Shown: positions 22,343-42,013 of the stretch, piece by piece | Numbering within the stretch: the stretch's first letter is position 1 | How the letters are laid out: every line of letters begins with the position of its first letter | Source: Mesorhizobium sp. NZP2298 | Lineage (GTDB): Bacteria; Pseudomonadota; Alphaproteobacteria; Rhizobiales; Rhizobiaceae | NCBI RefSeq assembly: GCF_013170825.1 | Contig: NZ_CP033365.1 | Location: 4,848,001-4,912,000 of the forward strand | DNA: 64,000 bases | Direction of reading: 5' to 3' | Translations under genes and position numbers: made by a program | The notes under the pieces: generated by a model | Told to the model about the DNA's origin: nothing | The model's database searches: none | The model's input: the letters and a program-made list of their open reading frames with translations, nothing else

Positions 22343-22768
22343 TTACGTCTGGTCCGCAATCCCAAGCTTTTCAGCGCGGTCCCGCATTTCGACTGGGAGT
22401 TTGGCCTTGCAGCGCTCCAGTAGGTCGAAATGCACGCTGACAACACGCATTCGGGCCCGAGGGATATCATCGAGCGTCCCGGTCAATCTATGCACATAGG
22501 TCAGCGAGGATGTGCCGATGGCTTCGACGTGCGAGTGGACCGAAACATTCGTGCCGGCCGACGTCTCCCGGAGATAGTCTATCTCCATGCGGACATCGGC
22601 CCAGCCGTAGCGCTTCGTGTCCATCTCCAGCCCGCCGACGCGGCCTAGCAACTGGAAGCTGGCGTCGTCGAACATCCCGACATAATGCCGGACGTTGAGG
22701 TGTCCCATCGCATCGCACATCCAGGGGTGCACGACGCCGGCAAAGGTAATGACCGGTGCCCTCGTCAA
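22343..22768 (-). CDS. Thioesterase (4HBT hot-dog fold)
   Basis: A 141-aa acyl-CoA thioesterase of the YbgC/4HBT type. The active-site segment HPWMCDAMGHLNVRHYVGMF contains the conserved D-x-x-G-H-x-N-x-x-x-Y. It overlaps the upstream BKACE gene by four bases and is clearly its partner. The same pair is known in carnitine catabolism, where a BKACE forms betainyl-CoA from 3-dehydrocarnitine and a thioesterase (CdhB-like) releases betaine. Here no carnitine dehydrogenase is visible, so the acyl group is unknown. Confidence 0.87.
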   Translation of the reverse strand: MTRAPVITFAGVVHPWMCDAMGHLNVRHYVGMFDDASFQLLGRVGGLEMDTKRYGWADVRMEIDYLRETSAGTNVSVHSHVEAIGTSSLTYVHRLTGTLDDIPRARMRVVSVHFDLLERCKAKLPVEMRDRAEKLGIADQT

Positions 22769-23700
22769 AACGCCACCTCGTTCCCACCCTTGAGTTTGAG
22801 GATGGTTCTCGCCTCCTCCGGGGTCGCCACTTCCAAAGAAAGCTCGTCCAATATGCGCCTGATCTTCGCCACCTGCTCGGCATTGCTCTTGGCGAGCTTA
22901 TGCTTGGCGAGGTAGAGGCTGTCTTCCAGGCCCACGCGGACGTTGCCTCCCATTACAGCTCCCATCGTGCACAGCCCCATCTGGTGCTTGCCTGCCGCCA
23001 AGATCGACCAGAGATAATCCCGGCCGAAGAGCCTGTCGGCGGTCCGGCGCATGTGCATCATGTCTTCCGGACTCGCTCCTATCCCGCCGAGCAGGCCGAA
23101 GATCGTCTGCACGAAAAGAGGAGGCGTCAACAGCTTGCGGTCGAGGAAGTGGGCCAGGGTGTAGAGATGGCTGACGTCGTAGCACTCAAACTCGAACTTC
23201 GTGCCGTAGGCCTGCCCCACCTCGACGATGACCCTCTCGATCTGCTCGAACGTGTTTGAGACGATGCCGCCCTTCGTTCCTTCCAGATAGGGCTTCTCCC
23301 ATTCGTGCTTCCACGTATCGTATTTCGGCACGATATGGTGGAGCGCGAAGTTCATCGATCCCATGTTGAGAGAGCACAACTCCGGCCTTGCGGCATGGGC
23401 GGCCTCCAGCCTCTCCTCAAGCGACATCTTGAGGCCCCCGCCAGTCGAAATGTTCATAACGGCGTCTGTCTGCTGCTTGATGCGCGGCAGAAAGTCCATG
23501 AACAGTCGCGGGTCGGGCGTGGGCTTGCCGGTTTCCGGGTCACGCGCATGCAGGTGTATCACGGCGGCGCCAGCCTCGGCCGCTCCGACGGCGGCTTCCA
23601 CGATCTCGTTGGGCGTGATCGGCAGATAGGGACTCATCGTCGGCGTGTGGATGGATCCCGTCACGGCACAGGTGATGATCACCTTGGGCGTTGCAGTCAT
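22765..23700 (-). CDS. Beta-keto acid cleavage enzyme (BKACE, DUF849), copy 1
   Basis: A 311-aa Zn-dependent enzyme that condenses a beta-keto acid with acetyl-CoA and splits it to acetoacetate and a new acyl-CoA. The metal-binding motif is AAVIHLHARDPETGKP. Further family marks are NISTGGGLKMSLEER, SLNMGSMNFALHHI and the C-terminal GGNVRVGLEDSLYL with its metal-binding region. The subfamily looks close to 3-dehydrocarnitine-cleaving enzymes (KVIITCAVTGSIHTP, WEKPYLEGT, FECYDVSHLYTLAHF), but this is by memory of the pattern. It is followed by the thioesterase in a 4-bp overlap. Confidence 0.92.
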   Translation of the reverse strand: MTATPKVIITCAVTGSIHTPTMSPYLPITPNEIVEAAVGAAEAGAAVIHLHARDPETGKPTPDPRLFMDFLPRIKQQTDAVMNISTGGGLKMSLEERLEAAHAARPELCSLNMGSMNFALHHIVPKYDTWKHEWEKPYLEGTKGGIVSNTFEQIERVIVEVGQAYGTKFEFECYDVSHLYTLAHFLDRKLLTPPLFVQTIFGLLGGIGASPEDMMHMRRTADRLFGRDYLWSILAAGKHQMGLCTMGAVMGGNVRVGLEDSLYLAKHKLAKSNAEQVAKIRRILDELSLEVATPEEARTILKLKGGNEVAF

Positions 23701-23739
23701 GTTGTCCTCCCCTTGTCCGGCCTCCTGCCGGCCCTATCC

Positions 23740-24846
23740 TCATGGCGCAAGCGCAAGACAGTCGCGCGCCCACCATCCTATGTTCACCTCCGTACCGGGA
23801 CACACATCGCGCCGGCCAGCTTCATTCGGTGTCTTGAGCACGATCGGGCCCATGCCGGGCACATCGCAGATTATTCTGACATGGTCGCCGACATAGATGA
23901 CCTGACGCACCGTCGCGACGAACCCATTGTCGCGTTCGCCGGCTCGGGCCAGAAGGCTCACCCGCTCCGGCCTGACCGACACGATGGTGGCGGCACTGGC
24001 GGACGAGGGATGTTCGCCGACCGGCATCGCGACAACGTCTGCGCCATCGTTCAGCCTGACGATGGCGGTGTCGCCTTGCTTGCGCACTATCGTTCCGTGG
24101 AACTGGTTGTTCTCGCCGATGAAGTTCGCCACGAAGCTGGTCTGCGGACGCTCGTAGAGTTCAGCCGGGTTCGACAGTTGCTGGACCGAGCCCGCATTGA
24201 AGACCGCGATGCGGTCCGACATGGTCAGCGCCTCTGTCTGGTCGTGGGTGACATAGACGAATGTCACACCGAGCCGGGCATGGATCTCCTTGATCTCATA
24301 TTGCATCTGCTCGCGAAGCTGCTTGTCGAGGGCGCCGAGCGGCTCGTCCATCAGCACCAGCGACGGCTGGAAGATGAGTGCGCGCGCCACAGCGATCCGC
24401 TGCTGCTGTCCGCCTGAAAGCTGATCCGGCCTGCGCGCGCCCAGACTTGGCAAGCGGACCATCTCGAGAAGAGACTTGACCCTTTCCTCAACCTCAGCCC
24501 TGCCGATGCGGCGGACCTGCAAGGGAAACGCCAGGTTTTCCGCAACGGTCATATGCGGGAAAAGCGCATAGTTCTGGAACACCATCCCGATGCCGCGCCG
24601 GTTCGGCGAAACATTGTCTATACGCCGGCCGTTGATCAGGATCTCGCCCTGCGACGGCTCCTCGAACCCGGCGAGCATCATGAGGGCGGTTGTCTTGCCC
24701 GAACCGGAAGGACCGAGCAGGGTCAGAAACTCGCCCCGCCTTATATCCAGGTTGAGGTCACGCACAGCCTGCACGGCGTTGCCGTAGCTCTTTGCGATAT
24801 CGCGGAATTCCACATGCGCCCGGGTGGCGGTCGAACCCTCAGTCAT
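23740..24846 (-). CDS. Spermidine/putrescine-type ABC transporter ATPase (PotA-like)
   Basis: A 368-aa importer ATPase. Walker A is LGPSGSGKTT, the signature QLSGGQQQRIAVARAL, and Walker B LVLMDEPLGALD with switch TFVYVTHDQTEAL. A C-terminal TOBE domain follows (about residues 285-365). It serves the divergently encoded binding protein and two permeases at 25816-28897. Its ATG overlaps the stop of the GntR gene (24843-24846), so regulator and ATPase are translationally coupled. Confidence 0.94.
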   Translation of the reverse strand: MTEGSTATRAHVEFRDIAKSYGNAVQAVRDLNLDIRRGEFLTLLGPSGSGKTTALMMLAGFEEPSQGEILINGRRIDNVSPNRRGIGMVFQNYALFPHMTVAENLAFPLQVRRIGRAEVEERVKSLLEMVRLPSLGARRPDQLSGGQQQRIAVARALIFQPSLVLMDEPLGALDKQLREQMQYEIKEIHARLGVTFVYVTHDQTEALTMSDRIAVFNAGSVQQLSNPAELYERPQTSFVANFIGENNQFHGTIVRKQGDTAIVRLNDGADVVAMPVGEHPSSASAATIVSVRPERVSLLARAGERDNGFVATVRQVIYVGDHVRIICDVPGMGPIVLKTPNEAGRRDVCPGTEVNIGWWARDCLALAP

Positions 24847-25592
24847 AGCGACAAGGTCCTCTTGCTCCTGGCATCAGGGCGCCGCCGCGCCTTTGGCAGA
24901 ACGCGCAGAGGCGTCGCAGCCGCGCGCAGGATGACATCCGCCGCGTCGGTGATGTCGGCGACCAGCGCCTGGCGCGCAGCATTGCCGTCGCCGCTCCGCA
25001 GGGCGGCAATCATCTCTTCATGATGGTGCAGGCCGGTGCCGGCCATCGTTCCGTCACGCACGAGATTGAGCCAGGGGCCGGCACGAAGCCACATGCGCTC
25101 GATGATCTGGTTGATTTGGACGGAACGCGCAGCGCGGTAGATGGTGAAATGGAAACGGCGGTTGAGCGTCAGATATTCCACCATGGCCCGAACCCGGACG
25201 CATTCGCCCATTGCCCCGTTGACATGCTCCAACTGCTCCAGCTCAGCCGTGCTGATGGTAGCGGCCGCCCATTCGACAGCGGCGCCCTCGATCTTGCAGC
25301 GCACGCGTGTCAGATCCCCGATCGTATCCACCGTCGCCTCGGGAACGATCACCCCGCGGTTCGGATGGTCATAGAGCGCTTCATCGCTGACGAGTTGTCG
25401 CAGCGCCTCGCGGACCGGCATTGCGCTTGTCTCGAACTGCTCCGCCAGATGACGCACGACAAGCCTCTGCCCCGGCACGAAGTCGCCGCTCATCAGCCGC
25501 TGCTTCAGATCGGCATAGACGCGCCTGTGAGCGGTCTCCGGAATGTCGCCACCTGACATCTGGCCGGGCGCCGCGTCCCTCTTGGCGCGCAT
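24843..25592 (-). CDS. GntR family regulator with FCD domain, copy 1
   Basis: A repressor-type regulator of the FadR/VanR (FCD) group. The winged helix is VYADLKQRLMSGDFVPGQRL followed by LAEQFETSAMPVREALRQLV. The effector FCD domain contains the helix RRFHFTIYRA and HHHEEMIAAL, with metal-binding histidines. It is strongly similar along its whole length to the regulator at 40090, so the two are paralogues. ATG 25592 gives 249 aa, matching the paralogue's 257; a GTG at 25676 would add 28 residues. It probably binds the ATTTGATCAAAT palindromes near its own promoter. Confidence 0.92.
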   Translation of the reverse strand: MRAKRDAAPGQMSGGDIPETAHRRVYADLKQRLMSGDFVPGQRLVVRHLAEQFETSAMPVREALRQLVSDEALYDHPNRGVIVPEATVDTIGDLTRVRCKIEGAAVEWAAATISTAELEQLEHVNGAMGECVRVRAMVEYLTLNRRFHFTIYRAARSVQINQIIERMWLRAGPWLNLVRDGTMAGTGLHHHEEMIAALRSGDGNAARQALVADITDAADVILRAAATPLRVLPKARRRPDARSKRTLSL

Positions 25593-25694
25593 CAGTGCCG
25601 CCGCGTCTCGGGAGCGGCCGCGCACACACAGAGGGGAAATCGTTTCGCCGATTGTCCTAACGTCAGGTTTCGACACGCAGTTCTGGCACTTCGC

Positions 25695-25706
25695 ATTCGA
25701 TCAAAT
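25695..25706. promoter_or_regulatory. Candidate GntR operator, imperfect site
   Basis: ATTCGATCAAAT matches the ATTTGATCAAAT palindrome at 11 of 12 positions. It lies upstream of the GntR gene in the divergent promoter region. An additional palindrome, TTGATTATCAA, is at 25751-25761. Confidence 0.5.
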
Positions 25707-25778
25707 CCGACCGCTCGATTCATTTTTTCGCACCATACAAGATTTTTTGGTTGATTATCAATGCATTTTAGGATTGTG

Positions 25779-25790
25779 ATTTGATCAAAT
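25779..25790. promoter_or_regulatory. Candidate GntR operator, perfect palindrome
   Basis: ATTTGATCAAAT is a perfect 12-bp palindrome, 26 bp upstream of the binding-protein start at 25816. The same sequence occurs twice upstream of hyuB at 30.3 kb. The surrounding 25740-25800 region is AT-rich, as expected of a promoter. Confidence 0.7.
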
Positions 25791-25815
25791 ATAACACTGA
25801 AACAGGGGAAGTACG

Positions 25816-26871
25816 ATGGGCAGATACTTGAATGCGATTTCGACCGCCGCTCTTGGCGTGGTTCTCACCGCAGTGGCCGCGCAGGGTGCGGAGCCGATCA
25901 CCGTCGTCGGGTGGGGCGGCACGTGGGATAAGGCGTACAAGGAAGGCGTCTGGGACAAATATACGAAGCAGACCGGCGTGCCCGTCGTGCAGGAGGAGTG
26001 GGAGGGCGAGGTTGCCAAAGTCCGGGCACAGGTCCAATCAGGATCGATCACCTACGACCTAGTATCGGTGGAAGCGCCGGCAGCCGAGATCGGCTGCGCC
26101 GAAGGCCTGTTCGTTCCCCTCACCCCGGAGATCACCGGCGATCCCTCCAGTTATCTCGACGGCAGCGTGCACGAATGCGGTGTGGCGTCAGACACTTGGG
26201 CGACGATTCTCACCTACAACACCGACGTCTTCAAGGGCGACAGCGGGCCGAAGAGTTGGGCGGACTTCTGGAATGTCGACAAGTTCCCGGGCAAGCGCGG
26301 CGTCTTATCCCAGGCCCAGTACACTCTGGAAAACGCACTGATGGCGGATGGCGTAAAGCCGGCTGACGTCTACAAGGTTCTTTCCACGCCGGAAGGTGTT
26401 GATCGCGCTTTCGCCATGCTGGACAAGATCAGGCCGAACGCCGTCTGGTGGTCCGGAACGACCCAGGCCATCCAGAATCTCGACAGCGGCGAAGTCGTGA
26501 TGTCCGATCAATACAACGCACGCATCACCAACGAGGCGCTCAAGGAGAAGAAGCCTTACGCCATCGTGTGGGAGGCCGGCTTCTTCTACGGCACGGACAT
26601 CTGGGCGGTGGTCAAGGGTGCACCGCACGAGAAGGAGGCCCTGGATCTTCTCAAATGGTTCTCGGAACCTCAGAATCAGGCGGGCTTTTCGGCGCTCTAT
26701 GCCTACGGAACAGGTCGCAAGGAAGCGGCGCAGTTCATCCCTGCGGAACAACTCGCAAACTTGCCGACATCGCCGGAGCATCTGAAATACGGCATGGCCT
26801 ACGACAACGCCTTCTGGACCGAGCATAAGGAGGCGCTGGAGGAGCGCTTCAAGGCTTGGCTTGGAAAGTGA
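25816..26871 (+). CDS. PotD/opine-type ABC transporter substrate-binding protein
   Basis: A 351-aa periplasmic protein of the spermidine/putrescine-binding (SBP_bac_8/PotD) superfamily. The signal peptide is MGRYLNAISTAALGVVLTAV, with likely cleavage after AQG. The mature protein begins with ITVVGWGGTWDKAYKEG, a motif typical of this group. Segments such as SVEAPAAEIGCAEGLFVPL and VMSDQYNARITNEAL place it with amino-acid/opine importers. It is the first gene of a plus-strand operon with two permeases and an M20 hydrolase; the ATPase is on the other strand. Confidence 0.92.
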   Translation: MGRYLNAISTAALGVVLTAVAAQGAEPITVVGWGGTWDKAYKEGVWDKYTKQTGVPVVQEEWEGEVAKVRAQVQSGSITYDLVSVEAPAAEIGCAEGLFVPLTPEITGDPSSYLDGSVHECGVASDTWATILTYNTDVFKGDSGPKSWADFWNVDKFPGKRGVLSQAQYTLENALMADGVKPADVYKVLSTPEGVDRAFAMLDKIRPNAVWWSGTTQAIQNLDSGEVVMSDQYNARITNEALKEKKPYAIVWEAGFFYGTDIWAVVKGAPHEKEALDLLKWFSEPQNQAGFSALYAYGTGRKEAAQFIPAEQLANLPTSPEHLKYGMAYDNAFWTEHKEALEERFKAWLGK

Positions 26872-26894
26872 TGTTGCGGCGTGAGTGATAACCG

Positions 26895-28100
26895 ATGAAC
26901 CGGCGGCGGCACAGACGTGATGGACTTTTCATCTTGCTGGCGCTGCCGCTGATTCTCTTCGTGCTGGTCGTATTCCTGTGGCCGGTCGCTCGCTTCCTCG
27001 CTCTTTCGGTCGACAATTCCGACCTGTCGGACAATCTGACCCGGACTGTCGCCTCGCTTGACGGGTGGAATCCAGCACAGGGCCTACCCGGCGAAGACAC
27101 TTTCGTGGCGCTAGTGGACGATCTGGCCCGCGCGCGGCGTGCCGGCAGGGACGGTCTTGTCGGTCAACTGATCAATCAGCGCTTGGTGGGCACCCGCTTC
27201 CTCGTCATCAAGACCGCCAAGGACGCCGCCGCCGGCAAGTTCGACCAGCGCCCGTTGCGCGAAGCCGTGCTGGCCGCTTATCCGGGATGGTCCGACGTGA
27301 GCCTCTGGCGGACCATTGCCCTGCAGCGCAGCGCCTACACCGACTATTATCTGCTCGCCAGCCTCGACCTTCAGCGCGCGCCCGACGGGTCGATCGAGAA
27401 GGCTCCGGCGGACAAGGCGGTTTTCCTGGAGATCCTGTGGCGTACGGTGTGGATCAGTTTCGTGGTCACGATGATCTGCGCGGTCGTCGCGCTGCCGCTG
27501 GCGCAGGCGATCGTCAGCGCACCACCCGTACGGTCGCGAATACTGTTCGCGCTGGTGCTTTTTCCTCTATGGGTTTCGCTCCTCGTCCGCACTGTGATCT
27601 GGATCATCGTTCTGCAGAAGAACGGACCGATCAATTCCGCCCTCCTGGCAGTCGGATTGACAGACCATCCACTTTCCCTCGTCTATACGCGCTTTTCCCT
27701 CTACATCGCCATGGTCCAGGTACTGCTTCCGATGATGGTGCTTTCGCTGGTTTCGGTAATGCGCCGCATCCCGGCCAGCTATATGAGGGCCGCTCTTTCG
27801 CTCGGTGCCTCATGGTTGACGGCCTGGAGGCGCGTCCAATTGCCTCTTGTGATGCCTGGCCTTCTGTCCGGCGCGGCGATCGTCTTCGTGTTCGCGCTCG
27901 GCTACTATATCACGCCTACCCTTGTCGGCGGCCCCACCGACCAGATGATATCGTCCTACATAGCCTTCTACACCAACAAGACATTGAACTGGGGCATGGC
28001 GGCAGCGCTGTCGGTGCAGTTGCTGCTCATCCTGGCCGCCAGCGCGATACTGTTCTGGACCGCGGCGGCTTTGCTCAGGCGCTCGGCTGCCACCTCATGA
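26895..28100 (+). CDS. PotB-like ABC transporter permease with long periplasmic insertion
   Basis: A 401-aa permease of the BPD_transp_1 type. The coupling EAA-like loop reads YMRAALSLGASWLTAWRRVQLPL. Between TM1 (FILLALPLILFVLVVFLWPV) and TM2 there is an insertion of about 135 residues, much longer than the usual about 60 in PotB, with hydrophilic composition (residues 40-175). Such long insertions occur in some rhizobial members of this class, but their role is unknown. Its stop overlaps the ATG of the next permease. Confidence 0.9.
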   Translation: MNRRRHRRDGLFILLALPLILFVLVVFLWPVARFLALSVDNSDLSDNLTRTVASLDGWNPAQGLPGEDTFVALVDDLARARRAGRDGLVGQLINQRLVGTRFLVIKTAKDAAAGKFDQRPLREAVLAAYPGWSDVSLWRTIALQRSAYTDYYLLASLDLQRAPDGSIEKAPADKAVFLEILWRTVWISFVVTMICAVVALPLAQAIVSAPPVRSRILFALVLFPLWVSLLVRTVIWIIVLQKNGPINSALLAVGLTDHPLSLVYTRFSLYIAMVQVLLPMMVLSLVSVMRRIPASYMRAALSLGASWLTAWRRVQLPLVMPGLLSGAAIVFVFALGYYITPTLVGGPTDQMISSYIAFYTNKTLNWGMAAALSVQLLLILAASAILFWTAAALLRRSAATS

Positions 28101-28897
28101 ACGCCGCAACGCTTCGCAGCCGGGCCATGTATATCTACGCAGCCCTGCTACTTGCCTTCATGCTGGGGCCACTTCTCATTGTCGTGCCTATGTCACTGAC
28201 CAGCGGCACTTCGCTCACCTTCCCAACTCCTGGATATTCTTGGCGCTGGTTTCGTGAACTTGCGGACGATCCGCGCTGGCTGTCCTCCTTCGTCAACTCG
28301 GTGCTGATCGCCTCGAGCGTGACCCTGCTGTCCAGCGTCCTCGGCATACCGGCGGCGATGGCGCTTGCCTGGACGAAATTCCCTGGCAAGCGGGTCATCT
28401 ATGCGATCATCGCCGCGCCACTGGTCGTTCCGGTGGTAATCGTCGGCGTGGCCGCCTTTTCCTTTTTCTCGGCCCTGGGGATGGTCGGGAACAAGCTTTC
28501 CATAATCCTCACCCACACCGCCCTTGCCGTGCCGGTGATGTTGACCACCGTCATGGCCAGCCTCTCGAATTTCGACAGGACGCTGGTGCGCGCGGCTGCA
28601 TCGCTTGGGGCAGGTCCGCTGCTCATATTCTTCAGGGTCGTCTTGCCGTTGATCGCGCCCGGCGTTGTCAGCGGCGCCATCATTGCCTTCATCATCTCGT
28701 TCGACGAAGTCGTGGTGGCAAGCTTCCTGTCGACGGGCGAGGAGCGCACCCTTCCGCGCATGATCTTCTCCGGCGTCCGGGAATCCATCAGTCCGGCAAT
28801 CGCCTCCGCCGCAGTCCTGCTTGTCCTTTTCTCGGCAATCCTGCTGATCTTGATCGGCTGGCTCCAGTCAAGGACTTCGAAATCCCGAGCCTCATGA
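28097..28897 (+). CDS. PotC-like ABC transporter permease
   Basis: A 266-aa permease, partner of the one before. It has six helices, starting MNAATLRSRAMYIYAALLLA; the coupling loop is LVRAAASLGAGPLLIFFRVVLPL. The motif AFIISFDEVVVASFLS near residue 200 is typical of PotC. The ATGA overlap with the preceding gene (28097-28100) fixes the start. Its own 3' end overlaps the M20 hydrolase. Confidence 0.93.
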   Translation: MNAATLRSRAMYIYAALLLAFMLGPLLIVVPMSLTSGTSLTFPTPGYSWRWFRELADDPRWLSSFVNSVLIASSVTLLSSVLGIPAAMALAWTKFPGKRVIYAIIAAPLVVPVVIVGVAAFSFFSALGMVGNKLSIILTHTALAVPVMLTTVMASLSNFDRTLVRAAASLGAGPLLIFFRVVLPLIAPGVVSGAIIAFIISFDEVVVASFLSTGEERTLPRMIFSGVRESISPAIASAAVLLVLFSAILLILIGWLQSRTSKSRAS

Positions 28898-30075: not shown

Positions 30076-30282
30076 AGCCGTTCAGCTCTCACGGAATCGC
30101 CGAACCGCTCTCTGTGTTTTGACAATTCCGGACGGAAAACCGTTACACCTTTCCTGGATTTGTTCCAGGTGCATCGCACGAAGCCGGCGATGGCCGTCGA
30201 AGGCTGCCCGAGCGGGAGGCTGCCTCATCGGATCAATTGTCCAGTGACGCAGACCTCACACCCGCGGTCCAATTGGTCAACC

Positions 30283-30300
30283 CATATTTGATCAAATATG
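30283..30300. promoter_or_regulatory. Candidate GntR operator, 18-bp perfect palindrome
   Basis: CATATTTGATCAAATATG is perfectly symmetrical over 18 bp. It contains the same ATTTGATCAAAT core found at 25779. Confidence 0.75.
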
Positions 30301-30314
30301 GGTTGACATGGGTG

Positions 30315-30329
30315 CATATTTGATCAAAT
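30315..30329. promoter_or_regulatory. Candidate GntR operator, second site
   Basis: CATATTTGATCAAAT repeats the core 32 bp (three helical turns) from the first site, centre to centre. This spacing would let two dimers bind the same DNA face. Confidence 0.72.
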
Positions 30330-30376
30330 CCTATCTCGGCTTAACGGAGAAATAGCTCATGGGAGGAGAAGAGCCG

Positions 30377-34224: not shown

Positions 34225-34264
34225 TGGCAGAAAACGTCAACAACCAGAGATGGGGACAACGACA

Positions 34265-35245
34265 ATGAAAATTGGATTGCGCCAAACTTATCTTGCACTG
34301 GCATTCGCCACTGCTCTTTCCGCGCCCGCCGGCGCCGTCGATCTTTCCGGCAAGCACCTCATACTGGTCAGCTGCGGCCCGTCCAATCCGTGGTGCAAGA
34401 CCTTCAACGAGCGCATCACCGGAATTCTGAAGGAGACCGGCGTCAAGATCACGGTGCTGGAGAATGATCTCGACCCGGTGCAGGTCAATCAGCAGGTGGC
34501 GCAGGCAGTGGCACAGAAGCCGGACCTCATCATGGTCGAGCCGGCCGATGACAAGTCCCTCATCGCCGCGATCAAGAAAGCCAAGGCCGCCGGCGTTTCG
34601 GTTCTTTACATGGACAGCCCTGCCGACCCGGCAATCATGGAAGACATCGCGCTGCAGGTGGTCGCCGACAATTACGCGCTCGGAAAGTTCGCCGGCGAGA
34701 ACATAGTGGAAGGGCTCAAGGCACAAGGCCGCAAGGAGGCCAATGTCATCGCCATTACGGGCTCGGCCGGCACCGCGATGGTGGCGGAGCGGCAGCGCGG
34801 CTTCATGGACGCCATGGCGCAAGAACCGGCATACAAAGTCGTCGAGGTGCAGGCCAACAACTGGGATCCAGTCGAAAGCGGCCGCATGGCCCAGCAGCTC
34901 TTTGCAAAGTACGGGTCCCAGGGCGGCATACAGGGCGTGCGCGCCGACGCGGACTACATGGCGATCCCCGTCCTGGAGGCGGCGCGTCAGGCCGGCCTGA
35001 AGCTGGGCGGCAAGGATGGGCTCGTCGTGTCCGGAAGCACCTGCTCGCCGGAGGGCATCGCCGCCATCAAAACCGGAGACATGATCGGCACGGCGACGGC
35101 GGATCCCTGGACCCAGGGCGAGGCAAGCGCCAACGCCGCTATCAAGTTCCTCAGCGGAGAGCCCGTCGAGAAGACGGTGAAGGTGCCCGAGTACCGTGTC
35201 ACCGCCGCGAATGTCGACCAGTATGGCGAGGTCTGCGCGAAATGA
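34265..35245 (+). CDS. Sugar-type ABC transporter substrate-binding protein (RbsB-like)
   Basis: A 326-aa periplasmic protein of the peripla_BP_4 group. The signal peptide is MKIGLRQTYLALAFATALSA, with cleavage probably after GAV or AGA. The first strand LILVSCGPSNPWCKTFNERI and the motif PDLIMVEPADDKSLI are typical. It contains several cysteines (CGPSNPWC, STCSPEG, GEVCAK) that could form a disulfide. The start is ATG 34265; the longer frame beginning upstream runs into hyuA. Its stop overlaps the ATPase ATG. Confidence 0.9.
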   Translation: MKIGLRQTYLALAFATALSAPAGAVDLSGKHLILVSCGPSNPWCKTFNERITGILKETGVKITVLENDLDPVQVNQQVAQAVAQKPDLIMVEPADDKSLIAAIKKAKAAGVSVLYMDSPADPAIMEDIALQVVADNYALGKFAGENIVEGLKAQGRKEANVIAITGSAGTAMVAERQRGFMDAMAQEPAYKVVEVQANNWDPVESGRMAQQLFAKYGSQGGIQGVRADADYMAIPVLEAARQAGLKLGGKDGLVVSGSTCSPEGIAAIKTGDMIGTATADPWTQGEASANAAIKFLSGEPVEKTVKVPEYRVTAANVDQYGEVCAK

Positions 35246-36753
35246 TGCCTGAGGCCCCTCTCCTGTCATTCGAGCGCGTGTCGCTGAGCTACGGCAGCTT
35301 CAAGGCTGTTCGCGAGGCAAGCTTCTCGCTCAAGGCAGGAGAGGTGCTCGGACTCTGCGGCCACAACGGCGCCGGCAAGAGCAGTGTCGTCCGGATGCTT
35401 TCCGGGCTGCACCGGCCCGACGAGGGAAGGATCGTGCTGGGCGGCGCACCCTGCTCATTCCGAAGCGTGCGCGACGCGCAGAGGCAGGGTGTGGCGCTGG
35501 TGGACCAGGAACTAAGCGTGATCCCGGCCCTGACGGTGGCGGAAAATCTGGCGCTTGGCGAACCCGGCCTCGGCTTGCGGGGCGCTCTGCCTCGCGAAGA
35601 GGTGCGAAGACGCCTGGACGCCGTCGGGCTTGATCAGTTGGACCCATTCAGCCACATCGAGGACCTGTCTATCGGCGAACGTCAGCTCGTGGAGATCGCG
35701 CGAGCGATGGGCCGCGACGCGCGGCTGTTCATTCTCGACGAGCCGACAGCGACCTTGAACACTGCCGACATCGCCCATGTCTTCAGAGCCGTGCGGAAAG
35801 TTGCGGCCGCGGGCTGCGGAGTGATCTACGTTTCGCATCGACTGGACGAAGTCCTCTCTCTTTGCCAGCGGATCGTGGTGATGCGGGACGGTGCCGTCAC
35901 TGCCGATGAACCGGCTGGGAGCCTCGATGCGGCAAGGCTTGTTGAGCTCATGATCGGCCACGCGCCCGCGCCGGTCGCAAGATCGGGCGGAGCAACCGTC
36001 GGCGGGCACCCGATCCTGGAGATTCGCAACCTTTCGACCGGTCCCACGGTGGAAAATTTCAATCTGTCGGTCATGGCGGGAACCGTCACGGCGATCGCCG
36101 GCCAGGTGGGGTCGGGAGGAAGCGATGTCCTGCATGCGCTCGCGGGGCTCACGCCAGCCGCCAAGGGCGACATCGGCGTCGGCGGCAGACGCGTGCCAAT
36201 CGGATCGCCGCATGCCTCGATTTCCGCCGGCGTCGGCTTTCTTTCAGCGGACCGCAAGGGTGACGGCTTGTTCCTGTCGCGCTCAATCCGCGAGAACCTT
36301 CTAGCCACGCGCCTCTCGACCCTGTCGCCGAGGGGATTCCTCCATCGATCAAAAATGCGGGCCACCGCCCGGACGATCGCGTCGCGGGTCGGCATAGACC
36401 AGAACCGGCTCGGCGAGTCGGTGAGACGATTGAGCGGGGGCAATCAACAGAAGACTTTCCTCGGCCGCTGCATGGAACGCGATGACATACGCGTCCTCCT
36501 CCTCGACGAACCGACACGCGGCGTCGACGTCGGCGGGCGCGCGGACATCCATGTGCTGTTGCGGGCGCTGGCGGCGCAGGACGTCGCCGTGGTCTTTGCT
36601 TCGTCGGACCTCGATGAAGTCCTGTCGCTGGCCGACGACGTGGTGGTCATGCGCTCGGGCCGCATCGTGTCCCAGGTTCCCGTGGCAGAAACGGACAATG
36701 TCAGACTCCTGTCGGACATGACGCACGGGCCGCTGACGGGAGCTGTAGCTTGA
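35242..36753 (+). CDS. Sugar-type ABC transporter ATPase (RbsA/MglA-like)
   Basis: A 503-aa double-NBD ATPase. NBD1: Walker A CGHNGAGKSSVV, signature LSIGERQLVEIARAM, Walker B LFILDEPTATLN. NBD2: Walker A GQVGSGGSDV (non-canonical, no GKS/T), signature LSGGNQQKTFLGR, Walker B VLLLDEPTRGVD. The altered second Walker A is normal for this class. It works with the binding protein at 34265 and the permeases at 36753 and 37688. All boundaries in this stretch overlap by about four bases. Confidence 0.92.
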   Translation: MMPEAPLLSFERVSLSYGSFKAVREASFSLKAGEVLGLCGHNGAGKSSVVRMLSGLHRPDEGRIVLGGAPCSFRSVRDAQRQGVALVDQELSVIPALTVAENLALGEPGLGLRGALPREEVRRRLDAVGLDQLDPFSHIEDLSIGERQLVEIARAMGRDARLFILDEPTATLNTADIAHVFRAVRKVAAAGCGVIYVSHRLDEVLSLCQRIVVMRDGAVTADEPAGSLDAARLVELMIGHAPAPVARSGGATVGGHPILEIRNLSTGPTVENFNLSVMAGTVTAIAGQVGSGGSDVLHALAGLTPAAKGDIGVGGRRVPIGSPHASISAGVGFLSADRKGDGLFLSRSIRENLLATRLSTLSPRGFLHRSKMRATARTIASRVGIDQNRLGESVRRLSGGNQQKTFLGRCMERDDIRVLLLDEPTRGVDVGGRADIHVLLRALAAQDVAVVFASSDLDEVLSLADDVVVMRSGRIVSQVPVAETDNVRLLSDMTHGPLTGAVA

Positions 36754-37691
36754 TGTCCATGAACCCGGCAAAGCGGATACTGCTTCCTGCGTTCGCCGTG
36801 GCCATGGCGATCGTCGTCGTGTGGTGCGCGGTGACGACGCAAGGCTTCTTCACGCTCGAAAATGCAAGGGCCATACTCGCCTCCATGATCTTCGTCGGCA
36901 TGGTGTCCGTGGGCATGACCCTGATCATGGTATCGGGCGCCTTCGTATCGATGGCGCTGGCGACCACCGCCACCATTTCCGCGATGATCTTCATGGCCAG
37001 CCTCTCGCTTGGCCTGCCCGCGGCAATCGTGTTGACCATTCTCGCCGGCGCGCTCACCGGCGCGCTGCAAGGGCTTGCAATCGGCGGCTGGAATGCCAAT
37101 CCCATCATCGTCACGATCGCCGCCGCCGCCGTGCTTGAGGGTGTGGCCGTGGCATTCTCGCACGGAGCGACGATCAATCCGGTCGGCACGTCGTACCAGG
37201 TGCTCAATGGGCGGCTGCTCGGGCTTCCCGTGGGCCTCTATGCCTTGGCGGCCCTGGCGCTGCTGGCAGAAGCGGTCTTTCGCTTCACTCGTCTTGGCCC
37301 GATGATCTACCTGATGGGCGACAGCCGCGTCGCAGCGAGATCGGCCGGCCTTCCCGTCGGCTGGATCGGAACTGCCGTATTCGCTATCGCCGGGGGTACG
37401 GCCGCGCTCGCCGGCATCTTCATGGCGAGTTTCAATCACTCGGCCTCGCTGCTGCTCAGCCGCGGCACGCTCGGCTACGATGCGATCGCAGCGGTGCTCA
37501 TAGGCGGCGCGGCCATCGGCGGCGGGCGCGGCAGCGTGCTCAACACCATGGTGGGCGTGGCAATCATCGCCGTAGTCTCCGACCTCGTGCTGCTGCGGGG
37601 TTTCACTACCGGAGAACAGATCTTCCTCAAGGGCCTCGTGATGGTCATCTTCGCCGTCGGCGTTCACCTTCGCCAGGAGCGCGCCCTATGA
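36753..37691 (+). CDS. Sugar-type ABC transporter permease (RbsC-like) 1
   Basis: A 312-aa permease of the BPD_transp_2 class, about eight to ten helices. Marks are MIFVGMVSVGMTLIMVSGAF, NPIIVTIAAAAVLEGVAVAF and the coupling segment MGDSRVAARSAGLPVGWI. The start is ATG 36753, one base into the preceding TGA; the in-frame TTG at 36750 and ATG at 36759 are alternatives. Confidence 0.9.
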   Translation: MSMNPAKRILLPAFAVAMAIVVVWCAVTTQGFFTLENARAILASMIFVGMVSVGMTLIMVSGAFVSMALATTATISAMIFMASLSLGLPAAIVLTILAGALTGALQGLAIGGWNANPIIVTIAAAAVLEGVAVAFSHGATINPVGTSYQVLNGRLLGLPVGLYALAALALLAEAVFRFTRLGPMIYLMGDSRVAARSAGLPVGWIGTAVFAIAGGTAALAGIFMASFNHSASLLLSRGTLGYDAIAAVLIGGAAIGGGRGSVLNTMVGVAIIAVVSDLVLLRGFTTGEQIFLKGLVMVIFAVGVHLRQERAL

Positions 37692-38761
37692 CCGGTTCCG
37701 CCTTTCAAAGCAGCGCCAGGCGCCAGAGACGCATTCGCGCGACACTGCCGCTCGCCACCGTGGTGATCATCGCCCTTGTGGCGCTGAGCCTCCCTGGCTG
37801 GACAGACACCGGTTTCTCGATCTTTTCCGTCTTCAACACATTCCAGAACACCGCGACGCTGGGGCTTCTCGCACTCGCCGTCGGATTGACCGTGATGATC
37901 GGGGAATTCGATCTCTCCTCCATCGCCATATTCACGCTTGGCGGGCTTCTGGCGGTGAAATTCGGCGAGGCCTCTCCGCTGCTGGGCATCGCCATCGCGG
38001 TGGCCGCGGGAGCCCTTCTGGGGGCCATACAGGGCGGGGCGCTGGTGCTGACGGGGATCAGTTCGGTGCCGCTGACGCTCGGTGGATACATCGTCATCCT
38101 TGGCTTCTGTCACATCGTCGCCGGCGAGGGCATCCTCGCATATGGAAACTACGACATCGGCATATGGCTGGATGATCCGGTGGCGTTGCTGTTCTCGCGC
38201 CGCAGCCTGCTGATCCTCTCGATCTTCCTCCTGCTGTGGGCGGCCATGCGCTTCACCCGGGTCGGTCCCCTGATCCGCTCGGTCGGAGCCGATCGTCGCG
38301 CGGCGCTCGCCTCCGGCGTCTCGGTCGGTCGCGTCGTCACGGGGGTCTTTGTCCTCTCCGGAATACTCTGCGCCCTGGGCGGAGCGCTGTTTTCCTATTC
38401 GACGACGGCGGCGAAATACGATCTCGGGCTCGATCCCTTCATCTTCGCTGTTACCGCCATCCTGCTCGGGGGAATAGACGTTTCCGGCGGGCGGGGCAGT
38501 GCCCTGGGGATCCTGGCAGGCGTTCTGGCGATGAGCCTTCTCGACACGATCTTCATTCAACTCGCCATGCCGACCTACATGATCGACCTTGCGCGTGGCG
38601 CGCTTCTGCTGGTCGTCGTGCTGATAGAGGCGCCGGACCTGACCCGAAGCATTGTCGCATGGAGGAACAACCGCGTCAGTGCGGCCGAGGCGGTATCACG
38701 CGGCATTTCCAAACCAGGCGCAATTGGCGCATCGGCCGAACATCAACGGAGGATTCAATGA
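37688..38761 (+). CDS. Sugar-type ABC transporter permease (RbsC-like) 2
   Basis: A 357-aa permease, second half of the heterodimer. It shows LGLLALAVGLTVMIGEFDLS, GISSVPLTLGGYIVILGFCH and the coupling segment SVGADRRAALASGVSVGR. The C-terminal tail of about 45 residues is polar and longer than usual. It overlaps both neighbours by four bases. Confidence 0.9.
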   Translation: MTGSAFQSSARRQRRIRATLPLATVVIIALVALSLPGWTDTGFSIFSVFNTFQNTATLGLLALAVGLTVMIGEFDLSSIAIFTLGGLLAVKFGEASPLLGIAIAVAAGALLGAIQGGALVLTGISSVPLTLGGYIVILGFCHIVAGEGILAYGNYDIGIWLDDPVALLFSRRSLLILSIFLLLWAAMRFTRVGPLIRSVGADRRAALASGVSVGRVVTGVFVLSGILCALGGALFSYSTTAAKYDLGLDPFIFAVTAILLGGIDVSGGRGSALGILAGVLAMSLLDTIFIQLAMPTYMIDLARGALLLVVVLIEAPDLTRSIVAWRNNRVSAAEAVSRGISKPGAIGASAEHQRRIQ

Positions 38762-40086
38762 ACGACACCAATCAAGCCCGCCGGAACTCGGATTTGGACG
38801 ATGCAGTGTCGGACGCCTATGCTCGCTTCGAGGCGGCCAATCCCAGGAGCCTCGCGCGTCACCAGGCAGCAATCGGCGTGCTTCCCGGCGGCAATACACG
38901 GGCAGTTCTCTATTATCCTCCCTTCCCGCTCACCTTCACCGGCGGAAACGGCTGTAAGGTCACCGACCTCGACGGACATGAGCATATCGACCTCGTGTCG
39001 GAATATTCGGCGGGCCTGTACGGGCACTCCAATCCGGTGATCGCGGCGGCGCAGAAGGACGTGATCGACGGCGGCTTGTCGCTCGGCGCACCGAATGTCG
39101 TCGAGGCTGAATACGCACGGGCGCTGGTCGACCGCTTTCCGGCCTTCGAGCGCGTGCGCTTCTGCAATTCCGGCACGGAAGCGAACATCATGGCCATCTC
39201 CACCGCCCGGGCGGTGACCGGACGGCCCAAGGTGATCGCGATGCATGAAGGATATCATGGCGGCGTACTCACCTTTGCCCATGGCGGATCGGAACTGAAC
39301 CTGCCCTTCCCGTTCCTGTTCGCAGAGTACAACGATGTGGCGGCGATCCGGGCGTTGATCCGCGAGCATGCGCCGGACCTTGCTGCGGTCATACTGGAAC
39401 CGATGATGGGCGGCGGCGGCTGCATTCCCGCCACCTCTGAATTTCTGGCGGCGATCCGCGAGGAAACGCGCGCGGCTGGCGCCTTGATGATCATCGACGA
39501 GGTGATGACGTCGCGGCTCGACTATCGCGGATTGCACGGTGCGCATGGCGTCCTGCCCGACCTGCTGACGATGGGCAAATACCTTGGCGGCGGCGCAAGC
39601 TTCGGCTGCTTCGGCGGCCGCGCCGACATCATGGACCGGTTCGACCCGGCACGGAAGCATGCCTTCTCCCACGGCGGCACCTTCAACAACAATCTGCTGA
39701 GCATGGCCGGCGGCATGGCAGGCTTCACCAAAGTGCTCACCTTGGAAGCGAGCCGCAAGGTCAACGAGCAAGGCGACAGGCTCCGCAGAGACCTGCAGGC
39801 CATGTTTGATCGGCATAGGGTGGTGGCGACGGTGACCGGTCGGGGCTCGCTGATGGCCCTGCACTTCCTGAAGGGTCCTATCGACAATCCGGCAATCATC
39901 GACAGCGCGGACCCGCGCGGTCTCTCTCTTTTCCATGTCGAGATGTTGTTGCGAGGCGTTTATCTGGCGCCGCGCGGCATGATCGCGCTGTCGATCCCGT
40001 TCGGCGACGAGGAGGCATCGCGGGTGCTGGATGCGGTCGACGACTTTTTGCAGGTCAATGGACATCTCCTGCCGCGGGAAGCGTGA
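38758..40086 (+). CDS. Class III aminotransferase, beta-amino-acid aminotransferase-like (annotators may call it GSAM)
   Basis: A 442-aa PLP-dependent aminotransferase. The PLP lysine is in LLTMGKYLGGGASFGCFGGR, and the phosphate/ring contacts in FCNSGTEANIMA, EGYHGG and MIIDEVMTSRL. Automated pipelines often label this family glutamate-1-semialdehyde aminomutase. I judge it closer to the beta-phenylalanine aminotransferases described from Variovorax and Mesorhizobium, which share VLYYPPFPLT, EYSAGLYGHS, SHGGTFNNN and LAPRGMIALSIP-like segments; this is from memory. The start is ATG 38758 with GGAGG seven bases upstream. It would turn a beta-amino acid into a beta-keto acid. Confidence 0.87.
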   Translation: MNDTNQARRNSDLDDAVSDAYARFEAANPRSLARHQAAIGVLPGGNTRAVLYYPPFPLTFTGGNGCKVTDLDGHEHIDLVSEYSAGLYGHSNPVIAAAQKDVIDGGLSLGAPNVVEAEYARALVDRFPAFERVRFCNSGTEANIMAISTARAVTGRPKVIAMHEGYHGGVLTFAHGGSELNLPFPFLFAEYNDVAAIRALIREHAPDLAAVILEPMMGGGGCIPATSEFLAAIREETRAAGALMIIDEVMTSRLDYRGLHGAHGVLPDLLTMGKYLGGGASFGCFGGRADIMDRFDPARKHAFSHGGTFNNNLLSMAGGMAGFTKVLTLEASRKVNEQGDRLRRDLQAMFDRHRVVATVTGRGSLMALHFLKGPIDNPAIIDSADPRGLSLFHVEMLLRGVYLAPRGMIALSIPFGDEEASRVLDAVDDFLQVNGHLLPREA

Positions 40087-40089
40087 TCC

Positions 40090-40863
40090 ATGGCCGTCAA
40101 GAAAGTTCCGATCCCCGACGCGGAGGAAGCCCCTCAACGCAACGAAGTGGTGACCGCGCATGCGATCATCTATGCCGAGCTGAAATCCGCACTGATGAAT
40201 GGGGATTTCCAACCCGGCGACCGGCTCATCGTACGCGAATTGTCGGAACGCTTCGCTACCAGCGCCATGCCGGTGCGCGAGGCGCTGCGCAAGCTCGTTA
40301 ACGATGAAGCCCTTTTTGATCACCCCAATCGGGGTGTCACCGTTCCAACCGCGGACGTCGCGTCCGTGGCTGACCTTTTCCGGGTACGCTGCGCCATTGA
40401 AGGGCAGGCCGCGGAGTGGGCGGCCGCGACGATCAGCGCCGCTGAGCTTGATGCGATCCATCGCATCAACGACGCGATGAAGGCTTGCGTGCAGACCCAC
40501 GAGGTTTCGCAATATCTGGCGCTCAACAGACAATTCCATTTCACGATCTATCGGGCATCACGATCGAAAGTGCTCGTTCCGATAATCGAGCGCCTTTGGT
40601 TACGGGCCGGTCCGCTGCTCAACATCATGCGCCAGGAAGCAACCATCCAGCAGGGCCTGGATCACCATACCGACATTCTGGACGCCATAGGCAAAGGGCA
40701 GGGACCGCAATCCCGCAGAGCGATGGCGGCCGACATTGCCGATGCCAGCGACATCCTTCAACGCGCTGTTCCCTACTGGGAACCTGGCGCAGGCAGTCTT
40801 CACCAAGCGTCTGACGAAACCGGCTCCGGTGATGGTCGAAATCTTATTCAGAATCCGGAGTAG
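40090..40863 (+). CDS. GntR family regulator with FCD domain, copy 2
   Basis: A 257-aa FCD-type GntR regulator. The helix-turn-helix reads LSERFATSAMPVREALRKLV; the effector domain includes NRQFHFTIYRASRSK and LDHHTDILDAIG. Over its length it matches the regulator at 24843 closely (for example DHPNRGV and AAEWAAATIS in both). It sits inside the catabolic operon between the aminotransferase and BKACE genes. Both regulators probably share the ATTTGATCAAAT operator. Confidence 0.92.
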   Translation: MAVKKVPIPDAEEAPQRNEVVTAHAIIYAELKSALMNGDFQPGDRLIVRELSERFATSAMPVREALRKLVNDEALFDHPNRGVTVPTADVASVADLFRVRCAIEGQAAEWAAATISAAELDAIHRINDAMKACVQTHEVSQYLALNRQFHFTIYRASRSKVLVPIIERLWLRAGPLLNIMRQEATIQQGLDHHTDILDAIGKGQGPQSRRAMAADIADASDILQRAVPYWEPGAGSLHQASDETGSGDGRNLIQNPE

Positions 40864-40866
40864 ACA

Positions 40867-41790
40867 ATGGCACGTCCCGTTATCATCACCTGCGCGCTGA
40901 CCGGCGACAGCAACACACCCGCCAAGAGCCCACACGTGCCGGTCACGCCGGCTGCCATCGCCGCCGATGCGCTGGCGGCCGCCGAGGCAGGAGCAGCCAT
41001 CGTCCATATCCACGTCCGCGACCCGGCTACGGGCAAGGGTAGCCGAAACACCGACTACTATCGCGAGGTCGTCGAGCGCATCGCCGACAGCGGTGCGGAT
41101 GTCATCGTCAATCTCACGGCCGGAATGGGTGGCAAGCTCGTGCTCGATGACGTGAACGCTCTGCCTTTCGATGGCTCGACCGATCTCGTAGGCGCCGCCG
41201 AACGGCTGGTCCATATCGAAGCGCTGAAGCCGGATATCTGCAGTCTGGACTGCGGCAGCTTCAACAATGGACTCGATACCGAAGTCTACGTCAGCACATC
41301 CGGCATGGTGCGAGAGATGGCCGAACGGATCGCGACGGCGGGCGTGAAGCCTGAACTCGAGGTCTTCGATTTCGGCCATCTGCGTCTCGCATGCAGCTTG
41401 GCGGAGGAAGGGCTGATCAAAGGACCGGCGTTTTTCCAGTTCGCGCTTGGCCTGCGCTGGGGCGCGCCATCCGACGCGGCGACCATGCTGCTTATGCGCA
41501 ACATGCTTCCGAAAGATGCCGTTTGGGTCGCATTTGGCGCTGGGGCGGAGCAGATGTCGGTGGCGGCGCAGTCAATCCTGCTTGGGGGACACGTCCGGGT
41601 CGGCCTGGAGGACAACATCTACCGCAGCCGAGGCGTGCTGGCGACGAATGCCCAGTTGGTGGAGGATGCCGTGCATCTGGTGAAGAGCCTAGGAGGAGAG
41701 CCCGCGAATACGACCCAGGTTCGGCGAATTCTTGGACTTAAGCAGTCCAGCGTAGGCCAAGGAGGGCTTGGGGCCGTTGTCGGCGCTTAG
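40867..41790 (+). CDS. Beta-keto acid cleavage enzyme (BKACE, DUF849), copy 2
   Basis: A 307-aa Zn-dependent enzyme. The metal motif is AAIVHIHVRDPATGKG; the catalytic/substrate region is VNLTAGMGGKLVLDD, and GGHVRVGLEDNIYRS completes the active site. It differs clearly from copy 1 at 22765, so they probably act on different beta-keto acids. As the last gene of the aminotransferase operon it is the natural enzyme to cleave the product of transamination into acetoacetate and an acyl-CoA. Confidence 0.92.
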   Translation: MARPVIITCALTGDSNTPAKSPHVPVTPAAIAADALAAAEAGAAIVHIHVRDPATGKGSRNTDYYREVVERIADSGADVIVNLTAGMGGKLVLDDVNALPFDGSTDLVGAAERLVHIEALKPDICSLDCGSFNNGLDTEVYVSTSGMVREMAERIATAGVKPELEVFDFGHLRLACSLAEEGLIKGPAFFQFALGLRWGAPSDAATMLLMRNMLPKDAVWVAFGAGAEQMSVAAQSILLGGHVRVGLEDNIYRSRGVLATNAQLVEDAVHLVKSLGGEPANTTQVRRILGLKQSSVGQGGLGAVVGA

Positions 41791-42013
41791 CCAGTGTTTG
41801 TTCAGTCCAAAGATAGATGGACCAATAAGGGTAAACGACACCGGCGAGCTTCTCGGGGCCGGTTTGTGAACAGCTTGGTCAAACCGAGAAGCTTGGTTTC
41901 GGCCTCAGGGAGCATTCTCGCCGAACGCAACCCGAACGTTTGACAGCGCAGTGGAGGATGGAAATCAGCCCGAGAAGGCGAACGAACAGGTCGAGGTATC
42001 GGTCGGTGGCCTG
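41791..42013. other. Gap before the IS3 remnant
   Basis: About 220 bp with short frames only. A minus-strand frame reading YLDLFVRLLGLISILHCAVK looks like non-coding IS-flank sequence rather than a protein. No terminator was recognised. Confidence 0.35.

Follow-up and report, generated by a model that had tools for sequence, protein, structure and literature searches.

Can a bacterium use beta-amino acids that reach it in amide or lactam form by transaminating them and passing the resulting beta-keto acids straight to a beta-keto acid cleavage enzyme (BKACE)? The question is raised by a gene cluster of Mesorhizobium sp. NZP2298, located at positions 22343-41790 of a 64-kb stretch (hereafter the window) of a one-contig genome of 7.34 Mb. 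The cluster combines an aminotransferase and two BKACE proteins with a thioesterase, an M20 amidohydrolase, a HyuA/HyuB pair and two ABC importers. Our reading, which we consider probable, is that it comprises two catabolic modules feeding one chemistry, i.e. amide or lactam opening, release of a beta-amino acid, conversion to a beta-keto acid, cleavage by BKACE, and thioesterase action. The chemistry of each of these enzyme families is established; its operation in this particular cluster is what the sequence comparisons lead us to propose. Loci compared are designated by L-numbers and genomes by G-numbers, where G000 is the window's own genome and G914 is a Mesorhizobium metagenome-assembled genome (MAG); the families of the cluster genes were assigned with Pfam and NCBIfam profile scans.

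The aminotransferase and its linkage to BKACE

Among solved structures the best relatives of the cluster aminotransferase are VpAT (405.6 bits) and MesAT (403.6 bits, and 403.5 for a second MesAT construct), with glutamate-semialdehyde aminomutases (GSAM) beginning at 209 bits. This ranking, together with a score of 258.2 against the hemL model TIGR00713 (cut-off 527.3), rules out a glutamate-semialdehyde enzyme; judged by its sequence, the aminotransferase is not one. PMC9850050 links residues R41, V43, E75 and Y76 (VpAT numbering) to aromatic beta-amino acids; the window enzyme has R, V, E and Y at these positions, and the same source cautions that aliphatic substrates stay possible despite this motif. 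The proximity to VpAT and MesAT rather than to GSAM, and the retention of the binding residues, comport with the beta-amino-acid type that a first-pass annotation of this DNA had assigned.

Linkage was evaluated in 60 loci (each of at most 19.5 kb) taken from 119 distinct aminotransferase matches, with the window's own match excluded and all ten relatives of at least 55% identity included, the 55% line having been drawn after inspection of the data. BKACE is present in the fetched stretch of 11 of the 60 loci (8 of the 10 at 55% identity or above, 3 of the 50 below). The chance expectation is ~0.02 BKACE per 19.5-kb locus, as calculated from the 7 BKACE matches in the 7.34 Mb of the window's own genome, 2 of which lie inside the cluster. 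A quick maximum-likelihood tree of 66 rows, with SH-aLRT support only, places the window enzyme in a clade of 13 (SH-aLRT 98) in which 11 members are BKACE-linked; the count is 9 of 11 after omission of the window and of L027, the latter because it had been chosen by its BKACE. The BKACE label changes 6 times on the tree compared with a mean of 12.9 for shuffled labels, and none of 500 shuffles gave so low a value. The tie between aminotransferase and BKACE, which the first-pass annotation had proposed from this one cluster, is thus a recurrent property of the enzyme's subclade in other genomes.

The larger gene set recurs also. In L207 (G028, same genus) BKACE, HyuA, HyuB, a beta-aminotransferase and a hotdog thioesterase are found on one strand within ~7 kb (L207:3955-10904), so that the combination first noticed in the window has a compact counterpart within the genus, built around an aminotransferase of another lineage (best solved relative VpAT, 402 bits).

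A separate locus, L204 (G003), carries HyuA, HyuB, an aminotransferase and a thioesterase, with no BKACE in view.

Gene layout and the joining of two modules

The 17 genes of the cluster, whose open frames terminate exactly at both outer coordinates, form a minus-strand series (thioesterase to GntR1) and a divergent plus-strand series (PotD to BKACE2). Start positions were corrected for PotC (28097), RbsB (34265) and the aminotransferase (38758); the gene annotation and coordinates of the first reading otherwise agree with the open frames and with the Pfam and NCBIfam families. In order, the features are:

22343..22768, minus strand: thioesterase of hotdog acyl-CoA type (4HBT_2), module A; Pfam 57 bits, cut-off 25.5; relatives in L159, L160 and L223
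22765..23700, minus strand: BKACE1, short loop, Tyr at the catalytic position, module A; Pfam PF05853 349.2 bits; NF053538 516.9, cut-off 430
23740..24846, minus strand: PotA-type ABC ATPase, module A; TIGR01187 373.8, cut-off 355.6
24843..25676, minus strand: GntR1, FCD-type regulator, module A; Pfam GntR and FCD
25695..25706, no strand: second operator-like site ATTCGATCAAAT, one mismatch; a copy with the same mismatch lies in G914, 84 bp from the main site
25779..25790, no strand: putative operator ATTTGATCAAAT between GntR1 and PotD, a sequence motif
25816..26871, plus strand: PotD-type solute-binding protein, module A; Pfam SBP_bac_8; nearest solved chain MotA (mannopine class)
26895..28100, plus strand: PotB-type permease, module A; Pfam BPD_transp_1
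28097..28897, plus strand: PotC-type permease, module A; Pfam BPD_transp_1, matched on a longer mechanical frame
28894..30075, plus strand: M20 amidohydrolase, module A; TIGR01891 327.3, cut-off 153.75; motifs present
30276..30307, no strand: perfect palindrome of 32 bp enclosing putative operator ATTTGATCAAAT (30286-30297), a sequence motif
30318..30329, no strand: second putative ATTTGATCAAAT operator upstream of HyuB; L026 has the same pair at the same 32-bp spacing
30359..32161, plus strand: HyuB, hydantoinase B/oxoprolinase type, module B; Pfam 409 bits; 88% identical copy in L026
32161..34224, plus strand: HyuA, hydantoinase A/oxoprolinase type with ATPase motifs, module B; Pfam; caprolactamase alpha model 565.8, under the cut-off of 1000
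34265..35245, plus strand: RbsB-type binding protein, module B; Pfam Peripla_BP_4; nearest solved chains sugar-binding, 88 bits
35242..36753, plus strand: RbsA-type ATPase, module B; Pfam and NCBIfam
36750..37691, plus strand: RbsC-type permease 1, module B; Pfam
37688..38761, plus strand: RbsC-type permease 2, module B; Pfam
38758..40086, plus strand: beta-amino-acid aminotransferase, fold-type I class III, apparently displaced from module A into B; VpAT/MesAT scores, clade and residues; no counterpart at this place in L026
40090..40863, plus strand: GntR2, FCD-type regulator, module B; Pfam, and alignment with GntR1
40867..41790, plus strand: BKACE2, long loop, Phe at the Tyr position, module B; Pfam PF05853 323 bits; 87% copy in L026, and 71% copy beside the aminotransferase in L027

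Comparison with other genomes shows that module A (thioesterase, BKACE1, PotA, GntR1, PotDBC and M20) normally includes the aminotransferase, and that module B (HyuBA, RbsBACC, GntR2 and BKACE2) does not. G914 has a complete module A on one contig (L223, L224), with thioesterase, BKACE1, PotA, GntR1 and aminotransferase divergent from PotD, PotB, PotC, M20, a DAO-type oxidoreductase and a cupin, and has module B on a different contig (L026) in the order HyuB, HyuA, RbsB, RbsA, RbsC, RbsC, GntR2, BKACE2. Compared with the window, module A of G914 is 60-85% identical and most of its module B 81-89%, GntR2 being at 77%. L160 (G389) has the same module A arrangement, and so does L159 (G302), except that PotA lies at the far end there; the two halves of the arrangement are seen on the short contigs L163 and L164, and in L165-L167 BKACE1, GntR and aminotransferase lie opposite PotDBC, with a C45-family hydrolase replacing M20. 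In the window the aminotransferase is absent from the slot between GntR1 and PotD and stands instead between RbsC and GntR2, while the tree assigns it to the enzymes of module A (support 97). In the window modules A and B are joined, and the aminotransferase appears to have moved into B.

The DAO-type oxidoreductase and cupin genes that lie 3' of M20 elsewhere are missing from the window cluster. Searches of the window for traces of the DAO gene gave weak matches only (E 0.02 or worse), and none of the seven matches in the window's own genome (28-31% identity) is an ortholog. The oxidoreductase accompanies aminotransferase and BKACE in five loci (L223-L224, L159, L160, L165 and L175), being TIGR03329-like, under cut-off, in L159, and a cupin stands alongside it in four of these (all except L175). 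Among the 146 genomes of the genus sample, relatives of BKACE2 occur in 2 others (52-53%) and relatives of HyuB in 12 others (45-53%); L221 (G881), also of the genus, has a BKACE2-like gene (54%) immediately next to a HyuB-like gene (27%).

Two BKACE types, possibly interchangeable

Both BKACE proteins far exceed the PF05853 cut-off of 24.8 bits (349.2 and 323 bits) and keep the Zn ligands (two His and Glu). They are nevertheless divergent, as had been claimed at first reading: the position discussed as catalytic is Tyr in BKACE1 and Phe in BKACE2, and a loop that is short in BKACE1 is 17 residues longer in BKACE2. Copies of BKACE1 type (73-90% identical) are found near the aminotransferase in L159, L160, L163, L165-L167 and L223, and copies of BKACE2 type in L027, L162 and L168, with more distant types in L175, L201 and L207. 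The two types occupy the same place beside the aminotransferase in different loci, and are more likely to be alternative exits than successive steps.

The Phe residue is present in 80 of the 82 BKACE frames from 80 loci found with BKACE2, the other two frames having gaps at this position. A carnitine-dehydrogenase-like gene is carried by 28 of the 80 loci, and the two such proteins tested, from L227 and L080, both pass the carnitine 3-dehydrogenase cut-off. In L227, which belongs to the window's own genome, a Phe-type BKACE lies near carnitine 3-dehydrogenase (597.3, cut-off 592) with an HD-domain gene between them. Because BKACEs beside carnitine dehydrogenases also have Phe, this residue cannot alone mean lost cleavage, and the candidate interpretation of BKACE2 as a non-cleaving enzyme owing to its Phe is not upheld.

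The window's own genome has a second group (L226, C1:4642500-4662000) that brings together an amidase, a class III aminotransferase, BKACE and a thioesterase; its content is a thioesterase, an ABC importer, a DMFA2_C protein, an aminotransferase of another subfamily, BKACE (L226:9580-10509, NF053538 519.8) and a histone-deacetylase-fold protein.

A putative shared operator

The 12-base palindrome ATTTGATCAAAT has three exact copies in the window's own genome (25779, 30286 and 30318), all of them in the cluster. With up to one mismatch there are 4 matches in the window compared with 0.08 in its shuffles, and 10 places in the whole genome, of which 4 are in the cluster (control, 1). Eight whole genomes with such clusters hold 12 exact sites (3 in G000, 3 in G914, and 1 in each of six others), all in control regions of these clusters, and the reversed pattern gives 0; the exact sites of G914 are one for module A and two for module B. 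In L027 AGTTGATCAACT occurs twice in place of ATTTGATCAAAT. Aligned over 205 residues, the two regulators GntR1 and GntR2 show 58.5% identity, and the stretch TSAMPVREALR is common to both. Since both modules carry ATTTGATCAAAT, and all three exact copies of the genome are found here, modules A and B are likely to be co-regulated; the coordinated expression that the first-pass annotation had put forward as its own test point is therefore likely, given the presence of the same operator in both halves.

Inspection of 19 loci with sites elsewhere in the genus places 3 sites between PotD and an aminotransferase, 6 beside a different GntR (36-37% identical to GntR1; L270, L271, L276, L280, L281 and L282), 4 beside another GntR (29%; L273, L284, L286 and L287), and 6 in unclear places. 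The occurrence of ATTTGATCAAAT beside these other GntR families suggests a shared operator class. ATTTGATCAAAT is an operator class common to other GntR proteins, and in the window's own genome its exact form marks modules A and B alone. A search of viral contigs for the 22-base half palindrome found none.

Entrance enzymes and importers

The enzyme at the entrance varies from locus to locus: it is M20 in L159, L160, L164 and G914, C45 in L165-L167, a penicillin-amidase family protein with GGT in L162, GGT in L168, an Amidohydro_2 protein in L175, and HyuAB in L201 and L207. From this diversity of hydrolases it would seem that a beta-amino acid is imported in amide or ring form. Amide hydrolases are found in 10 of 11 BKACE-positive and 6 of 49 BKACE-negative loci (Fisher 1e-6), an enrichment that is partly circular because 4 of the 7 query families came from BKACE-positive loci; with queries from the window only (M20, HyuA and HyuB) the counts are 4 of 11 and 3 of 49. 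The cluster M20 passes the cut-off of the N-acyl amino acid amidohydrolase model TIGR01891 and carries the metal motifs. Caprolactamase was rejected as a name for HyuAB, as its cut-offs are missed (alpha 565.8 and beta 240.5, compared with 1000). The nearest solved relatives of PotD are binders of opines, polyamines and GABA-like compounds (MotA 151.5 bits, agropine permease chain ~130 bits; ligand classes by chain name) and those of RbsB are sugar-binding; neither set names the ligand.

Because modules A and B lie on different contigs in G914, M20 in the one and HyuAB in the other look like alternative inputs, and it is more likely that they are alternative entrances than steps of one line. 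The single linear pathway through every gene that had been drawn at first reading is for this reason not borne out.

Proposed route

In step 1 the Pot-type importer would take up an amide conjugate of a beta-amino acid, to be hydrolysed by M20, and the Rbs-type importer would take up a second compound, to be opened by HyuAB with ATP. In step 2, for which the evidence is at the level of protein families, the aminotransferase would convert the free beta-amino acid to a beta-keto acid, with 2-oxoglutarate probably serving as acceptor; PMC6150868 describes the conversion of beta-phenylalanine to its keto acid by (S)-selective transamination. In step 3, at the same level of evidence, BKACE1 or BKACE2 would combine the beta-keto acid with acetyl-CoA to give acetoacetate and an acyl-CoA shorter by two carbons, thereby pre-empting decarboxylation of the unstable beta-keto acid to a ketone. 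BKACE substrates include benzoylacetate according to PMC4922564, and PMC12482172 reports conversion of carnitine to betaine via BKACE. In step 4 the thioesterase would release the acid and CoA, as in carnitine breakdown. GntR1 and GntR2 would bind ATTTGATCAAAT and so control both modules.

On balance we lean toward a wider claim as well, namely that the cluster represents a distinct, recurring type of pathway in which interchangeable hydrolases (of M20, C45, penicillin-amidase, GGT or HyuAB type) open beta-amino acids bound as amides or lactams, a dedicated aminotransferase clade transaminates them, and one or the other of two BKACE types, themselves interchangeable, cleaves the resulting keto acids, under FCD-GntR control with ATTTGATCAAAT.

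Points against the route, and alternative explanations

Several observations weigh against the proposed route. There is no BKACE in the fetched stretch of 49 of the 60 loci of aminotransferase relatives, although some of these lie on short contigs. Two relatives of at least 55% identity are among them: L164, whose 5.1-kb contig breaks off within the aminotransferase, and L161, a true exception, which lies within the linked clade and has neither BKACE nor operator. Module B of L026 has no adjoining aminotransferase, and BKACE2 has Phe where PMC12871164 (the flavophos paper) states that all BKACE sequences have Tyr at the catalytic position. Nor is the operator exclusive: within the genus it is found in 20 of 146 genomes, at 25 sites; of the 23 inspected, 7 can be placed in these modules (3 in G000, 1 in G014, and 3 from the 19 loci above).

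Two alternatives would change the order or the direction of the chemistry. With the reversed order of the Kat variant of lysine fermentation, BKACE would act first, on an amino-keto acid, and a HemL-like transaminase would then act on the 3-aminoacyl-CoA; PMC3149608 indeed places Kat, a class III transaminase resembling HemL, in a pathway that contains BKACE. This order is quite unlikely here, as the Pfam and NCBIfam scans of cluster genes revealed no lysine aminomutase or diaminohexanoate dehydrogenase, both BKACEs miss the cut-off of 382 of the Kce model NF052387 (BKACE1 227.7, BKACE2 241.4), the aminotransferase keeps the binding residues for a free beta-carboxylate, and the thioesterase would compete for the acyl-CoA. 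It is very unlikely that BKACE2 transfers an acetyl group in the manner of the flavophos enzyme BsfD, with module B making or altering a product rather than degrading one. BsfD is the second-best solved relative of BKACE2 (239 bits) and, as given in PMC12871164, resembles it in its Phe at the Tyr position and in its long loop; but Phe is shared by the 80 of 82 frames counted above, from loci that in 28 of 80 cases have a carnitine-dehydrogenase-like gene (passing the cut-off in L227 and L080), a setting in which cleavage is the role reported in PMC12482172, and BKACE2 types replace BKACE1 beside the aminotransferase.

The remaining alternatives concern what enters the pathway and whether there is one pathway at all. 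A gamma-glutamyl route, in which a gamma-glutamyl conjugate brings in the beta-amino acid and GGT, ChaC or M20 releases it, with HyuAB as 5-oxoprolinase, would account for GGT near aminotransferase and BKACE in L162, L168 and L201, for ChaC in L165 and L167, and for the membership of HyuA in the oxoprolinase/hydantoinase family. We regard it as unlikely, since Pfam finds no GGT or ChaC among the window cluster genes and the top NCBIfam model of HyuA is caprolactamase alpha, though under cut-off. That two unrelated pathways are merely adjacent, with the aminotransferase serving only one of them, would agree with the separate contigs of the modules in G914 and with the difference between the importers. 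It is made improbable by the same palindrome in both modules, in G914 also, by the 58.5% identity and common TSAMPVREALR stretch of the two GntR proteins, by the apparent movement of the aminotransferase into module B, and by the joint occurrence of HyuAB, BKACE and beta-aminotransferase in L201 and L207.

Surroundings of the cluster

Next to BKACE2, window 42007-42753 holds an IS3-like remnant, repeated in other genomes of the genus (90% in G016, 81% in G001), and then ~195 bases that are 96-98% identical to several genus genomes and resemble part of a gene for a ring-hydroxylating oxygenase (Pfam below cut-offs). Just beyond the thioesterase gene, at window ~22240-22300, is a short stretch whose frame has stops, and which from its motif we take to be IstB-like. 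Because of this stretch, mobile-element remnants may bound the cluster on both sides. Plasmid origin was considered and rejected, as no record covers 80% of the cluster. Farther along, the minus strand has a single very long open frame of 3792 codons (window 49599-60977).

Comparison with known systems

The proposed route resembles the pathway from L-carnitine to glycine betaine (carnitine dehydrogenase, BKACE/CdhC and thioesterase), in which BKACE cuts a beta-keto acid with acetyl-CoA (PMC12482172, PMC5806209). The difference is in the origin of the keto acid, which there comes from oxidation of a beta-hydroxy acid, whereas here a beta-amino acid set free by amide or lactam opening would be transaminated to it. 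In the carnitine route a hotdog thioesterase frees the acid, and the cluster thioesterase has a weak match to the thioesterase part of the carnitine 3-dehydrogenase model NF005716. No carnitine 3-dehydrogenase was found by Pfam or NCBIfam among the cluster genes beside the two BKACEs; the genome's own cluster of that kind is L227.

VpAT and MesAT, the best solved relatives, have the same substrate-binding motif as the window aminotransferase but lie outside the BKACE-linked clade that holds it, and L205, a near-identical relative of MesAT, has no BKACE in its 19.5-kb stretch. Published studies treat beta-aminotransferases chiefly as biocatalysts, and PMC6100204 notes that the beta-keto acids they produce decompose readily in water. 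CapAB caprolactamase and N-methylhydantoinase are of the same family as window HyuA and HyuB, which however fall far below the caprolactamase cut-offs and are followed by a beta- rather than an omega-aminotransferase. Caprolactam breakdown employs an omega-aminotransferase. As to opine uptake (mannopine, agropine), MotA and the agropine permease are among the nearest solved chains of PotD, at ~150 and ~130 bits only, and the sequence gives no evidence that the PotD ligand is an opine; the literature search found nothing on agropinic acid with hydantoinase.

The first-pass annotation had described BKACE as known mainly from lysine fermentation and carnitine use, which is fair, and had called its pairing with a class III aminotransferase and HyuAB unusual; BKACE next to a HemL-like class III beta-transaminase has a precedent in Kat (PMC3149608). 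Lysine fermentation (Kce with Kal or Kat) also uses BKACE, joined in the Kat variant by a transaminase of that kind; it differs from the window cluster in that Kat acts after BKACE (PMC3149608) and in that the window BKACEs miss the Kce cut-off. The open-access literature searched, which does not extend to the context data in the BKACE family paper of Bastard et al. 2014, yielded no description of BKACE combined with a dedicated beta-aminotransferase clade downstream of amide or lactam opening.

If the proposed route is correct, a dedicated BKACE behind a beta-aminotransferase would explain how cells retain the carbon, BKACE proteins would gain a further physiological setting, and a clade of beta-aminotransferases would acquire a physiological role. 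The cluster yields concrete predictions for the binding proteins, the keto acids and the operator, and as read here illustrates the joining of two regulated modules and the transfer of a key gene between them. Every enzyme family is known, and what would be new is the combination; its closest published counterpart is lysine fermentation in the Kat variant, and the pathway would stand as a transaminase twin of the carnitine route.

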